Source: Gammaproteobacteria bacterium (GTDB lineage: Bacteria; Pseudomonadota; Gammaproteobacteria; Steroidobacterales; JABDKV01). Taken from it: a stretch of 64,000 bases of DNA. Below the pieces are notes generated by a model. It saw only the letters and a program-made list of their open reading frames with translations, was not told the DNA's origin and searched no databases. The DNA lies in NCBI GenBank assembly GCA_013003425.1, contig JABDJB010000045.1, positions 62,001 to 126,000 on the forward strand, read 5' to 3'. Both the position numbers and the translations under genes were made by a program. Shown piece by piece: positions 38,832 through 44,071 of the stretch. The first letter of the stretch is position 1; each line of letters begins with the position of its first letter.

Positions 38832-39521
38832 ATGCGGGCAAATCACGCTTTCCTGGCAGTAGCCGTCCTGGCCGGGCTGTTGCCGCTGGTCGGGGCGAAC
38901 GCGGCTTATGTATTGTCAGCCAGCGCGGGCTTCGTGCCGGAGTGCAATCCTTACCTGTCCGGCTGCACCTCGGTCAGTGCCACCGGTCGCAATCCGCCCG
39001 GCAGTTTCGTTTACAAGGGCACCATGATGCCGGCCGCTGTGTTTATGCTGGTGTACTGGTTCCTGGCCGGTCGCTGGCTGGCCGCGCACGGTGACAGGTC
39101 GCTGCGCTGCCGGGCGCTGCCGTGGCTGGGTCTGGTCGCTGCTGTATTCCTGGTGGTTTACACTACGGTGCTCGGCCATGTTGGCGAATGGTTTGCGATC
39201 CAGCGGCGCATCGGCGTCGTGGGTTACCTGTCGGCAACATTTTTTGGTCAGCTGCTGTTTGTCAGCCGTATCGCAACCCTGATGCGCGAGGGTCGCCTTG
39301 CTATTCCACGATGGATCTATGTGGCAAAGCTGTCGCTTTGCGGTGCAATGCTGTTGCTGGGGCTTGCAGTAATACCGGCGCCGCTGTTCTTGTCTGACAT
39401 GGACACCGTGGAGCGGGTGCTGGAGTGGGACTTCTCTCTGCTGCTCGTGCTGTTCTTTCCGCTAACAGCATTTGCATGGCATTACGATCGCTTTGGCGCG
39501 GACTTCTTCGTCAGAAAGTAA
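38832..39521 (+). CDS. Frag1/DRAM-like integral membrane protein
   Basis: A 229-residue membrane protein with about six membrane segments. The first half carries the sequence SASAGFVPECNPYLSGCTS and GRNPPGSFVYKGTMMPAA, which resembles the extracytoplasmic loop of the Frag1/DRAM/Sfk1 family with its paired cysteines. Later helices include LVAAVFLVVYTTVLGHVGEW and AMLLLGLAVIPAPLF. The ATG at 38832 lies 23 nt after a -10-like TAGAAT (38803-38808). It overlaps the end of the convergent zinc-ribbon gene by 11 bp. The roughly 250 bp upstream hold no gene. Role unknown. Confidence 0.75.
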   Translation: MRANHAFLAVAVLAGLLPLVGANAAYVLSASAGFVPECNPYLSGCTSVSATGRNPPGSFVYKGTMMPAAVFMLVYWFLAGRWLAAHGDRSLRCRALPWLGLVAAVFLVVYTTVLGHVGEWFAIQRRIGVVGYLSATFFGQLLFVSRIATLMREGRLAIPRWIYVAKLSLCGAMLLLGLAVIPAPLFLSDMDTVERVLEWDFSLLLVLFFPLTAFAWHYDRFGADFFVRK

Positions 39522-40629
39522 TTACACCCGACTCGCTGCCCAGCACCAGCACGATCACAACCACGATTGCTGCTGCTACTGCGGCCGCCGCGATCTTGAA
39601 CTTGCTGTAGGGTCGTTCGCCCTGCACTTTGCCGGTGCGGCCGTTGACCACAAAGCGGTAGACCTTGTTGCGAAACCGGAATGCTGCCGACCATACCGGC
39701 AGCAGCAAGTGCTTGAAGGTAGTCTCGCTGTGGCGTGTATCAACGTGAGTGATGCGTTGCAGGTCGCCACCGATGTCACGGGCAACATCCTGGCGAATCA
39801 CGCGATCCATAATTTGTATTGCGGTTTTGAATCCTTCGTCCAGGCCGACCTGGTAGGCTTCACTGCGAAAACCGCTGAGGTAACGCTCGTCATAGCTGAC
39901 CAGGTTGGCAAGATCCCACGGCGCAAGCCGGTCGGTAATCTTGCGTGGCAGCGAGCGACTGGCGCCGACCAGCACGTCATCGAAAAATCGCGACACTCTG
40001 CCGGATGCCGGTCTCCAGCGCACTTTCTGCACCATGCGGGTGCGGGTAACGCGTCTGCCATTGACAACTGTGGTGTAGGTTTGTGGCACGTGATAGATCG
40101 TGCCGCGCTGTCCGCGATAACGGCTCACCGTTGCGCTGTCGTAAGTCCAGTACGGCACGTAAACACCGGTAAGCCTCGCATCACCCTCGGCGTAACGACG
40201 CAGCGAACCAGGCGCAAACCACAGCTTGCCCAGCCATTTCCTGAAGCTGGCGAGGGCTTTTTCTTCGTCGATCTCGAACGGCAGCAGCGATTCCGGCTTT
40301 ATGTGGCGCTCGGTGCCGGTGCCTTCGACCACCGGGGTGCCGCAAAACGGGCACTCGCCGGCATGAATGTGCGAACCCAGGTCAAACTCGGCCGCGCAGG
40401 ATTCGCACTGGGTCGTTTCGCGCTCTTCGGCCGGCGGTGCCTGTGCCAGCTCGCTAAGCGCCTCGCGGAAACCGTATTCACGCAGGACGCCGCTGCCGGA
40501 CTCGATATCCGTCGTATGCCCGCAGTACGGGCAGCTGATCTGATCAGTGCCGGGCTGAAACGTCTGCAGCGCCCCACAGCGTTCGCACGGAAACTGATCG
40601 GTACCGGGCGCGCGTACCTCGCTTGGCAC
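39511..40629 (-). CDS. Zinc-ribbon membrane protein (YdjG-like)
   Basis: A 372-residue protein with two N-terminal zinc ribbons (CERC...CPYC near 15-36 and CESC...CPFC near 74-97), a soluble middle domain, and a C-terminal membrane helix (AAAVAAAIVVVIVLVLG). It is often annotated as a TFIIB-type zinc ribbon or mis-annotated as primosomal protein N'. It resembles YdjG, which in Bacillus is encoded with PspA and an SPFH protein. The middle has YVPYWTYDS and a SLPRKITDRLAPWDL stretch conserved in such proteins. The start is a GTG at 40629 with a weak ribosome-binding site; the SPFH gene ends 23 bp upstream. It is the last gene of the cassette. Confidence 0.8.
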   Translation of the reverse strand: MPSEVRAPGTDQFPCERCGALQTFQPGTDQISCPYCGHTTDIESGSGVLREYGFREALSELAQAPPAEERETTQCESCAAEFDLGSHIHAGECPFCGTPVVEGTGTERHIKPESLLPFEIDEEKALASFRKWLGKLWFAPGSLRRYAEGDARLTGVYVPYWTYDSATVSRYRGQRGTIYHVPQTYTTVVNGRRVTRTRMVQKVRWRPASGRVSRFFDDVLVGASRSLPRKITDRLAPWDLANLVSYDERYLSGFRSEAYQVGLDEGFKTAIQIMDRVIRQDVARDIGGDLQRITHVDTRHSETTFKHLLLPVWSAAFRFRNKVYRFVVNGRTGKVQGERPYSKFKIAAAAVAAAIVVVIVLVLGSESGVITF

Positions 40630-40652
40630 GAAAAAAGCTCAGCCGGCCCGGC

Positions 40653-41759
40653 TCAGCCCTTTGGCACCGGTGGCGGCAGCTGGGCGAAAATAGCGGCCAG
40701 CTCGTCGACCCGCTCGGCCGCGGTCCACTCTTCCAGGCCCTGGCGCCAGACCAGCGTGTCGCGATTGACGTCGCCGGTTTCCAGCTTGTTACGAATCTCC
40801 GCCTTGGTGAACGGTCCGGTCTGGTGTCCCTCGCTGGCCAGGTACCACGGAGTTTCCTGTGGTACCGGTGGTGGCGTCGCGTTGCCGCCGCCACCGCTGC
40901 CGGCGGACATCGTGTCGACCATCTGCTTGGCCATGCCGAAACCCATACCCATGCCCATGCCGGCAGCAGCACCGCCGCCGGCCGGGTTTTCTGCCGCTGC
41001 GGTCATCGCTTCGGCCGCCTGGAATGTAGCGTAGTCACGCAGATTGCCAATGAGGCCCATGCTGGTGCGCTTGTCCAGCGCCTGCTCGACCTCCGACGGC
41101 AGTGAAATGTTTTCTACCAGCAGCTTGCGCAGGTCCAGTCCATACGAGCCGAACTCGGGGGCAATCTTGTTGGTAACGAAGTCACTGAGATCGTCATAGT
41201 TGGCGGCCAGGTCCAGTATCGGAATGCCTGACTGGCCGAGACTGGTGGCGAACCACGAGACGATGTGATTGCGCAGCTGCGCGGTTATTTCGTCAGTGGT
41301 AAAACGTCCGTCGGTACCGACGACCTCTTTCAGAAAAGTCACCGGATCGCCAATGGCTACGACGTAAGTGCCATATGAGCGCAGCCTCACCGGGCCGAAC
41401 TCCTTGTCGCGCAGCATGATCGGGTTTTTTGTACCCCACTTCAGGTCAGTGAACTGACGCATGTTGAAGTAATAGACTTCCGCCTTGAACGGGCTGTTGA
41501 AGCCGTGCGGCCAGCTCTGCAGCGTGGTCAGGATCGGCAGGTTGTTGGTATCGAGCTTGTACAAGCCGGGCTCGAAGATATCCGCAATCTGGCCTTCGTT
41601 GACGAACACCGCGATTTGCGACTCACGTACCGTGAGCATTGCGCCGTACTTTATTTCGTTGCCGTACCGCTCAAAGCGATACACCATGGTGTCGCTGGTG
41701 GCGTCTGTCCATTCGATTACATCGACGAACTCACCAAAGATTTTGTCCCAGAATGCCAT
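40653..41759 (-). CDS. SPFH-domain protein with C-terminal GYF_2 domain (YdjI-like)
   Basis: A 368-residue SPFH (band 7-like) protein similar to the 'virion core protein'-like group including Bacillus YdjI. The SPFH part covers about 1-250 (MAFWDKIFGEF, LTVRESQIAVFVNEGQ, then FNSPFKAEVYYFNMRQF). A Gly/Met-rich linker follows, with GMGMGMGFGMAKQM. The C-terminal domain (WYLASEGHQTGPFTKAEIR, then LVWRQGLEEW) is a GYF_2 domain. SPFH proteins oligomerise on membranes; the GYF_2 domain usually binds proline-rich partners. It lies 3 bp after telA and 23 bp before the zinc-ribbon gene. Confidence 0.88.
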   Translation of the reverse strand: MAFWDKIFGEFVDVIEWTDATSDTMVYRFERYGNEIKYGAMLTVRESQIAVFVNEGQIADIFEPGLYKLDTNNLPILTTLQSWPHGFNSPFKAEVYYFNMRQFTDLKWGTKNPIMLRDKEFGPVRLRSYGTYVVAIGDPVTFLKEVVGTDGRFTTDEITAQLRNHIVSWFATSLGQSGIPILDLAANYDDLSDFVTNKIAPEFGSYGLDLRKLLVENISLPSEVEQALDKRTSMGLIGNLRDYATFQAAEAMTAAAENPAGGGAAAGMGMGMGFGMAKQMVDTMSAGSGGGGNATPPPVPQETPWYLASEGHQTGPFTKAEIRNKLETGDVNRDTLVWRQGLEEWTAAERVDELAAIFAQLPPPVPKG

Positions 41760-41762
41760 GCT

Positions 41763-42914
41763 TCAGCTCCCTGTCTTGCCGCTGGCGCGGGCAGAGGCCG
41801 CCGCCAGTGTTTCGCGTAATTGTGTTTCCATTTCCTGCAGCTGGGTGACCGCCTCTGCGCGGGCACGTTTGCCTTCATCGGCAATCTGCAGGCTCTCTTC
41901 GATCGTGTCGATCAGGTTCTGGTTTGCCGTCTTGACCGACTCTACATCGACCACGCCGCGCTCCAGCTGTCGCCGGGTCTCGGCATTGGCCGTCTTCAAT
42001 GCTTCTGATGTCGACTCGAGCAGCTCGTTGGTCAGGTCGGTTGCGGCCTTGACGCTATCGGCAGCCTGCCCCGAGCGATAGATCGTCACGGCCGTGGCCA
42101 GCTGCTGGCGCCATAGTGGAATAGTGTTGGCCATAACCGAATTGATCTTTGTGACCAGGCCCTTGTCGTTTTCCTGCACCAGGCGAATACCGGGCAGGCT
42201 CTGCATGGTGATCTGGCGGGTCAGGCGCAGGTCATGGACGCGCCGCTCGAGATCGTCACGAGCGCTGCGCAGGTCACGCAGCTCCTGCGCTTTGATAACT
42301 TCATCGGTAGTGGCCGTGGCCTGTTCCAGCGCTGGTATTTCATGCGTATCCAGCCGCTGTAGCCGCTCCTCGCCAGCCGCGATGTACAGCTCCAGCTCAT
42401 GGAAGTACTCGAGGTTGGCATCGTACAGCCGGTCGAGCATTGTTATGTCGGTGAGCAGCTTCGTCTTGTGGCTGTCGAGATCGTTGGTGATCTTGTCAAT
42501 CTGGCGACGTACACCCTCGTAACGCTGCAGGAACTTGACCACCGGCTTTGCCTTGCCAAACAGGCGGGCAAAAAAGCCGGGTTTCTCCAGCGGGTCGGTA
42601 TCGAAGCCACGCAGGGTGGTGACCATCTCGCTGAGCGCATCACCGGCGGCGCCGAGGTCCTTGTTCTTGACCCCTTCGAGCATCTGGTCGGAGACCGTGG
42701 TCAGCTGTTCCTGGGCTTTGCTGCCGAAGAATATGATCGAATTGGAATCGCGCAAGTCCAGTTCGGCGATTAGCGCTTCCAGTTTCTGGCGATCTTCACC
42801 CTGGCTCTCGGCGTAGGGCACCACCTCGTTTTTCAGCTCGGGCACGGAAACGGCGGTTGCGCCCACCGTGGCCTGGGTCTGTACGGTTGTCCTGGTGTCA
42901 GTCTGGTCACTCAT
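41763..42914 (-). CDS. TelA-like toxic anion resistance protein
   Basis: A 383-residue, highly helical protein of the TelA (KlaA/YaaN) family, described as toxic anion (tellurite) resistance proteins and also implicated in envelope stress and antibiotic tolerance. Family features are LFGKAKPVVKFLQRYEGVR, RQIDKITNDLDSHKT, MLDRLYDANLEYFHELELYI and LPGIRLVQENDKGLVTKI. The N-terminal 30 residues are disordered. It follows xpaC by 24 bp and precedes the SPFH gene by 3 bp, so it is in the middle of the operon. The membership is clear; the substrate is not. Confidence 0.93.
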   Translation of the reverse strand: MSDQTDTRTTVQTQATVGATAVSVPELKNEVVPYAESQGEDRQKLEALIAELDLRDSNSIIFFGSKAQEQLTTVSDQMLEGVKNKDLGAAGDALSEMVTTLRGFDTDPLEKPGFFARLFGKAKPVVKFLQRYEGVRRQIDKITNDLDSHKTKLLTDITMLDRLYDANLEYFHELELYIAAGEERLQRLDTHEIPALEQATATTDEVIKAQELRDLRSARDDLERRVHDLRLTRQITMQSLPGIRLVQENDKGLVTKINSVMANTIPLWRQQLATAVTIYRSGQAADSVKAATDLTNELLESTSEALKTANAETRRQLERGVVDVESVKTANQNLIDTIEESLQIADEGKRARAEAVTQLQEMETQLRETLAAASARASGKTGS

Positions 42915-42938
42915 AAGTCTAGCTCCGGGGCAGGAAAA

Positions 42939-43781
42939 TCAGATTACGCCTTCTTTTTTCAGTTGCGTGGAAAGCACCTCGATCTGCACGTCCAGATCGA
43001 GCTTGTCGTGTTCGAGTAGTTTCTGGTGCTGTTCTTCGAATACACCTTCGATTGTGTTCAGCACATTGCGGAAATTGCCCTCAAGTTCGTCAACCTGCGC
43101 GCCCCGGCGATGTGAGCGGGCGTATCCCTCGGTGACTCGGCGGGCACCGTCCAGGTAGACATTGAGAAATTTTCGCGCGCGACGAATATCGCCGGGATCG
43201 TCTTCGATAAGGCCGAGGATCTTGCGTGCCTGTTGCGTTATGCGGCGCAGGCGATTGGTCAGTTCGGCATTGCGGATATCGCGGCGCGCCGAATCGATAC
43301 CAAGAATCTTGCTCTCGGCCTCTTTCAGCGTGGCAATGATCTCCTCGGTGGTGTAACCGTGGCTGCCCAATTTTGATAATTTGCTGCCGGCCGGGTCGCG
43401 GCCGTAAAACAGAGTGCTGCCGATAAACGCCAGCAGCGCGATTACAGCGGCGAACGGAAGAGAGTGGCCAATGGCAAGCCAGCTGCAGATGAAGGTGCCG
43501 AGGCCGGCAAACATCGAGCCGATGGCCTTGAGTGGCGTGCGCGAAGCCCGCGCGATCTTGCGTTTATTAAACTCCGCCTCGGCAACCAGTCCCTTGCGCA
43601 TGAAACGGGCAGCGGCGATGAACGAGGCGAAGGCGCCGCCAAAAATGAGCAGCTTCGAAAGCGAGCCCATAAACAGCACGACAATCAGCGCCGGCACCAG
43701 CGGCATGGCCAGCAGGTACAGCAGGTAGGCGCGACCGGGCCAGCGCGCCTTGTGCTTGTCGTGCTTGTATACCTCGGGCAC
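42939..43781 (-). CDS. XpaC-like membrane protein
   Basis: A 280-residue protein of the XpaC family, annotated as 5-bromo-4-chloroindolyl phosphate hydrolysis protein after the Bacillus gene, with no proven enzyme activity. Two membrane-helix pairs lie in the N-terminal half (YLLYLLAMPLVPALIVVLF, then SMFAGLGTFICSWLAI and AAVIALLAFIGSTLF). The C-terminal half is a long helical stretch with KEAESKILGIDSARRDI and ARKFLNVYLDGARRVTEGYA. It starts with a GTG at 43781, 3 bp after the small lipoprotein gene. In Bacillus, xpaC is also next to a telA homologue (yaaN). Confidence 0.88.
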   Translation of the reverse strand: MPEVYKHDKHKARWPGRAYLLYLLAMPLVPALIVVLFMGSLSKLLIFGGAFASFIAAARFMRKGLVAEAEFNKRKIARASRTPLKAIGSMFAGLGTFICSWLAIGHSLPFAAVIALLAFIGSTLFYGRDPAGSKLSKLGSHGYTTEEIIATLKEAESKILGIDSARRDIRNAELTNRLRRITQQARKILGLIEDDPGDIRRARKFLNVYLDGARRVTEGYARSHRRGAQVDELEGNFRNVLNTIEGVFEEQHQKLLEHDKLDLDVQIEVLSTQLKKEGVI

Positions 43782-43784
43782 CGC

Positions 43785-43913
43785 TCAGCGCTCCGACTTT
43801 ATATATATTGGCCCGTCAGTGGCATTGACGTGCAACAGGGCTGAGCACGAAGCAAAGCCCATGGTCACAACCAGCAATACGGCACCGAGGAAACGCCGCC
43901 ATGTATCCGACAT
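43785..43913 (-). CDS. Small predicted lipoprotein (42 aa)
   Basis: A very short predicted lipoprotein at the head of the TelA/XpaC cassette. The 42-residue product has a basic start (SDTWRRF), a hydrophobic stretch GAVLLVVTMG and a lipobox-like FASC with Cys at 23, followed by a 19-residue mature part ending YIKSER. The stop lies 3 bp before the xpaC start. I saw no strong ribosome-binding site. Tight spacing and the signal sequence support it, but size keeps confidence moderate. It could be a small envelope subunit or sensor of the cassette. Confidence 0.55.
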   Translation of the reverse strand: MSDTWRRFLGAVLLVVTMGFASCSALLHVNATDGPIYIKSER

Positions 43914-44071
43914 TGTTATTGAATCAGCCCAACTACAAACCCAGGCCGGCCGGGCACAGAGCCGGTGGCCGGGGCCGCACATTATAGAGGAATGCGCCGC
44001 CCCGCACTGTCAAGGAAAGCCACGGGGCTGCTAAAGCGTTAGAATCGGCGTCCTGTCGGGGGTGTGAATTC

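Follow-up and report, generated by a model that had tools for sequence, protein, structure and literature searches.

XpaC was named for a dye-phosphate assay and TelA for tellurite resistance, and loss of TelA affects the resistance to nisin and to other envelope drugs. Both stress proteins are widespread, and their function is unsettled. In Bacillus, Listeria and Lactococcus XpaC is encoded directly ahead of TelA (xpaC-yaaN), a pairing that an earlier note on the DNA studied here had named for Bacillus. The B. subtilis genes belong to the sigma-W regulon, and in L. lactis, xpaC and telA1 respond to envelope stress with a CesSR-linked induction (PMC3139573). Disruption of lmo1967 is described as raising the sensitivity to nisin and tellurite (cited in PMC12791056). 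A second B. subtilis operon of the same sigma-W regulon, pspA-ydjGHI, is separate from xpaC-yaaN (PMC3498285). Besides PspA it encodes the SPFH protein YdjI, the zinc-ribbon/TM protein YdjG and the TPM protein YdjH; YdjI, itself a soluble protein, depends on YdjG and YdjH to be located at the membrane and recruits PspA (PMC8581546). In the Ter-dependent stress systems (TerC/TerD/TerF/TelA), finally, TelA has been described as a sub-membrane component (PMC7824862).

In the window, that is, the whole stretch of 64,000 nucleotides analysed here, members of the first two systems stand in a single row. ORF calling finds five genes on the minus strand with gaps of 3, 24, 3 and 23 bp, exactly as had been claimed, headed by a short hydrophobic frame (Table 1). 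The identities proposed for the four larger products were borne out by Pfam and by invariant CxxC pairs. XpaC scores 118.6 bits against a curated cut-off of 29.8 (PF10112) and TelA 382.6 bits against 30 (PF05816), and the SPFH protein exceeds the cut-offs of both Band_7_1 (329.5 bits) and GYF_2 (66.9 bits). According to hydropathy, XpaC carries a cytosolic domain behind three hydrophobic segments; TM segments were detected neither in TelA nor in the SPFH protein, which ends with a Gly/Met-rich linker and the C-terminal GYF_2 domain. The last protein, for which Pfam gives weak zinc-ribbon matches only, consists of two ribbons, an alpha/beta domain and a C-terminal TM helix. Its ribbon cysteines (C15/C18/C33/C36 and C75/C78/C93/C96) are invariant in an alignment of ten homologues, and it matches an Enterococcus homologue encoded beside SPFH and TPM genes (E=8e-24). 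With two ribbons, a TM helix and a gene adjoining that of an SPFH protein, it is YdjG-like. The TTGACA and TATAAT elements of the putative promoter are conserved in four members of the genus at a spacing of 20–21 bp, which is more than usual for sigma-70; a sigma-E-like promoter was not found by a pattern search.

Table 1. Positions of the operon features in the window.
Feature	Position	Strand	Basis or remark
42-aa single-TM microprotein (the "lipoprotein" of the earlier note)	43785..43913	-	MSDTWRRFLGAVLLVVTMGFASCSALLHVNATDGPIYIKSER; head ORF
XpaC-family membrane protein, 280 aa	42939..43781	-	PF10112 E=4.5e-34; hydropathy; alignment
TelA, 383 aa, soluble	41763..42914	-	PF05816 E=2e-114; without TM
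SPFH (Band_7_1) + GYF_2 protein, 368 aa	40653..41759	-	PF13421 E=1.1e-98, PF14237 E=1.4e-18
YdjG-like zinc-ribbon protein, 372 aa	39511..40629	-	CxxC pairs; TM residues 346-364; homologue beside SPFH/TPM
Putative promoter TTGACA-N21-TATAAT	43981..44013	-	upstream of microprotein

With xpaC-yaaN the locus shares the position of XpaC directly ahead of TelA and the hydrophobic character of XpaC, since hydropathy finds one N-terminal hydrophobic segment in the B. subtilis protein and two in that of Listeria. However, XpaC has 204–219 aa there compared to 280 aa in the window, and the Bacillus and Listeria loci read contain neither a head microprotein nor SPFH–zinc-ribbon genes. With pspA-ydjGHI it shares the combination of an SPFH protein (YdjI) with a zinc-ribbon/TM protein (YdjG), and an Enterococcus SPFH–zinc-ribbon–TPM locus ties both by sequence. 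It differs in that PspA and TPM (YdjH) are missing from the operon, in which TelA and XpaC are found instead, and in that the SPFH protein of the window has a GYF_2 domain where a C-terminal zinc ribbon is described for that of B. subtilis (PMC11237479). The statement that there is no PspA holds for the operon, in which none was detected with Pfam, but not for the genome, where two PspA genes are located elsewhere. The likeness to the Ter-dependent systems lies in TelA; TerD gave no match in this genome while the controls were positive, and the operon lacks Ter metabolite genes.

By sequence search no solved structures were found for XpaC, TelA or the zinc-ribbon protein, and only the GYF domain of the SPFH protein has a solved relative, in a gliding protein of Myxococcus (7z3c). 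The AF2 model of TelA is an all-helical long hairpin of low confidence (pLDDT 63). A PspA/ESCRT-III-like fold of TelA is unsupported because this model is weak and Foldseek returned no PDB match at E<=0.001. The model of the zinc-ribbon protein (pLDDT 71) has an alpha/beta middle domain, a candidate for a YpeB-related/NTF2-like domain, again lacking a PDB match at E<=0.001; hits to pores and secretins were discarded in view of low probabilities and TM-scores near 0.1.

The operon is not peculiar to the window genome; it recurs in Gammaproteobacteria and Rhodobacterales. In a scan of named genomes TelA was encoded in 13 of 13 loci with XpaC ahead in 12, and SPFH and zinc-ribbon genes followed TelA in most of those loci which were sufficiently long. 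Among 40 sampled relatives, 11 possess TelA; seven of the ten relatives' loci read contain all four large genes and two more end at a contig edge. A class-wide sample gave PF10112 in 24 of 274 genomes. In the 20 loci read from this sample XpaC is followed by TelA at a distance of no more than about 510 bp, and an SPFH gene comes next in 11 of them, followed by the zinc-ribbon gene in eight (two others are cut by the contig end). The earlier note had regarded the module as refuted if relatives scattered these genes or if the small frame was unconserved, yet the genes stay together and the frame is conserved. What has to be given up is the idea that the merging is a local novelty, as the merged operon is widespread. 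No publication naming TelA, XpaC and SPFH together was found in the literature searched, and a prior description of the four-gene operon is possible. The Rhodobacterales show the same gene order plus a DUF2927 gene between TelA and SPFH (L028:5991-6950; L081:6029-7057), the product of which has in L028 the N-terminal signal of a lipoprotein (LAGC), judged by its sequence. Two small genomes (L079, L080) encode a protein downstream of TelA that resembles the window's SPFH protein in its GYF_2 region over a short stretch, the remainder being unrecognised.

Frames as small as the one at the head of the operon are easily overlooked, and the 42-aa ORF indeed belongs to no Pfam or NCBIfam family. It is a genuine gene under purifying selection, because profile ranks, pN/pS, the excess over shuffled sequence and the tight spacing to XpaC all agree on this. 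A hydrophobic ORF of 27–64 aa lies directly before XpaC in 33 of 33 aligned loci of the gammaproteobacterial type (among them L026, from a record titled Rhodospirillales). When profiles were built leaving out the clade in question, the microprotein ranked first of all six-frame segments in 31 of the 33 loci, with E values from 4e-3 to 3e-13 (8.3e-11 for the window ORF). The pooled pN/pS amounts to 0.23 for the genus of the window and to 0.24 for a second clade. When the same stretches were shuffled by dinucleotides, 0.49 such ORFs were expected in the 33 loci, where 31 were observed; this test slightly favours the ORF, since the stretch is anchored on its own stop. Thus, the short frame recurs at the same place, as had been proposed for a check, with profile matches in other families as well. 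The frame stops close to the start of XpaC, at a distance between -8 and +12 nt in 26 of the 33 loci, and ATGA or GTGA overlaps are frequent.

Is this microprotein a lipoprotein, as it had been labelled? Its conserved core comprises 27 columns with Gly8 in 33 of 33 and Gly17 in 28 of 33 sequences, positions 4 and 5 being mostly basic. Cys21 is present in 22 of 33; elsewhere Trp, Ile, Val, Leu or Phe takes its place between unchanged neighbours (SCQALL compared to SWQALF). A canonical lipobox, defined by the pattern [LVI][ASTVI][GAS]C, occurs in eight of the 33 loci, and the box of the window itself reads FASC, with F at -3, outside this pattern. On these two counts a lipoprotein character was rejected for the family as a whole, which is probably not one of lipoproteins, although Cys-bearing lineages may have this character. 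The suggested role as an outer partner loses its support together with this label. A single membrane-anchored helix, oriented N-in by its basic residues, suits all members at the level of sequence, and some lineages, that of the window among them, could have lipidation in addition.

It would be a different matter if the TM stretch were a signal peptide, cleaved ahead of the Cys and leaving a periplasmic or outer-membrane lipopeptide of 20 residues which senses envelope damage. The Cys is conserved in the genus of the window, it occurs in two thirds of the loci (22/33), a basic N-terminus precedes the hydrophobic stretch, and in the Rhodobacterales operons the larger DUF2927 gene, placed between TelA and SPFH, starts like that of a lipoprotein. 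We consider such a true lipoprotein unlikely, however: 11 of 33 loci replace the Cys by W, I, V, L or F with the flanks retained, several Cys members have Thr at -1 and canonical lipoboxes are confined to the eight loci, just 5–12 residues would follow the Cys in the mature part of ten members, and the invariant Gly8 would sit inside the supposed signal peptide. XpaC Cys99 and Cys122 are confined to loci whose microprotein has the Cys (7/7 and 6/6 in the alignment), a co-occurrence which was considered as a sign of Cys pairing between both proteins but may reflect shared ancestry.

Presence or absence of the SPFH–zinc-ribbon genes makes no difference to the association of the microprotein with XpaC–TelA. 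It is found in six loci without SPFH–zinc-ribbon genes (L061, L065, L068, L070, L073, L077) and therefore belongs to the XpaC–TelA half. CydX, AcrZ and KdpF are small single-TM subunits of membrane complexes. The microprotein resembles them in being short, in having one predicted TM helix and in presumably being co-expressed with a membrane partner, an analogy of architecture with no sequence relation shown. Overlap or tight spacing with the XpaC start would also suit a regulatory leader peptide, the translation or membrane insertion of which controls xpaC translation in the manner of arrest peptides while the peptide has no job in a complex. Known arrest motifs occupy a fixed position ahead of the stall site, but here the tail behind the conserved core varies from 0 to about 30 residues, and it is the TM core that is conserved, strongly and at the amino-acid level across families. 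A mere leader is thus very unlikely, and we prefer a subunit of XpaC.

Outside the gammaproteobacterial type, a different one-helix head ORF of 27–29 aa ranks first in 30 of 35 other alphaproteobacterial loci with leave-one-out profiles; these loci come mostly from family f228 and from named Rhodobacterales records. Homology between the gammaproteobacterial and Rhodobacterales microproteins was not detected (hhalign probability 2%), so that a single family is not supported and either extreme divergence has occurred or the same role has been filled twice. The head ORF is missing in five of the 35. Three of these five, read at length (L140, L141, L142), show TelA, then a solute-binding-like gene whose product has a lipoprotein-like N-terminus, and then XpaC. 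In the Firmicute loci read (Bacillus, Listeria) no microprotein was found before XpaC by profile; hence, it is not needed everywhere. Genome G216 possesses a second, divergent XpaC–TelA–SPFH–zinc-ribbon locus (L137:8097-9932, minus strand) with an M50B-type peptidase gene upstream, and there yet another one-helix ORF of 27 aa was found at -87..-4.

That two separate modules have been joined, as the earlier note put it, is well founded, because each occurs alone and the B. subtilis counterparts are separate operons. Among the genomes with XpaC–TelA, eight lack an SPFH protein of the window's family above the cut-off, and in the same eight no zinc-ribbon match was obtained, from a search set without an internal positive control. 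Genomes of this kind nevertheless carry the microprotein. In genome G286 about 310 kb separate the SPFH–zinc-ribbon pair from XpaC–TelA. The pair is found alone on Vibrio and Comamonas plasmids, and on an Enterococcus plasmid it is accompanied by a TPM gene, which corresponds to the composition of ydjGHI.

We read the locus as a two-module envelope-protection operon with the microprotein as a small subunit of XpaC and TelA as the protein recruited, a reading which, taken as a whole, has about an even chance of being right. In the first module, the single-TM microprotein and XpaC would form a membrane base holding the soluble coiled-coil protein TelA. The microprotein would be inserted N-in/C-out, pack through its invariant glycine and be translationally coupled to XpaC. 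In the second, the SPFH–GYF_2 protein would be anchored in the membrane by the YdjG-like zinc-ribbon protein. Because YdjI, YdjG and YdjH bring PspA to the membrane in B. subtilis, the SPFH–zinc-ribbon pair, co-expressed with TelA, may by analogy help TelA to reach damaged membrane, where XpaC and the microprotein would be its receptor. From this we infer a physical microprotein–XpaC complex, its topology and the recruitment of TelA; the operon as such probably protects the cell membrane.

The link between the modules could also be looser, both being merely co-transcribed as membrane-stress genes with no contact between SPFH–zinc-ribbon and XpaC–TelA. This is compatible with the microprotein as an XpaC subunit, as it concerns the inter-module link, and it would agree with the occurrence of each module without the other and with their separation in B. 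subtilis and G286. The recurrence of the merged order with short gaps across Gammaproteobacteria and Rhodobacterales speaks against it, and we regard it as possible but somewhat doubtful. Under the reading with recruited TelA, the merged operon points to a general role of the SPFH–zinc-ribbon pair as a scaffold by which coiled-coil stress proteins are recruited to the membrane, TelA replacing PspA. One may go further and tentatively propose, with similar doubt, that proteobacterial XpaC is a two-subunit protein with an obligate, overlooked microprotein of 27–64 aa, both together being the membrane receptor of TelA, and that the scaffold is interchangeable and in Firmicutes serves PspA, in Proteobacteria TelA. 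The conserved microprotein is a new component of a known type of stress operon, with a function that we infer, and as a conserved membrane partner it offers a small entry point to TelA and XpaC.

One further connection of XpaC to SPFH systems was seen in G286. There, L139:5682-7445 on the minus strand encodes a 587-aa fusion of an NfeD1b-type protease/NfeD membrane protein with the C-terminal half of XpaC, which is 55% identical to the window XpaC over 136 aa. The fusion gene adjoins two stomatin-type SPFH genes and represents an independent link by fusion.
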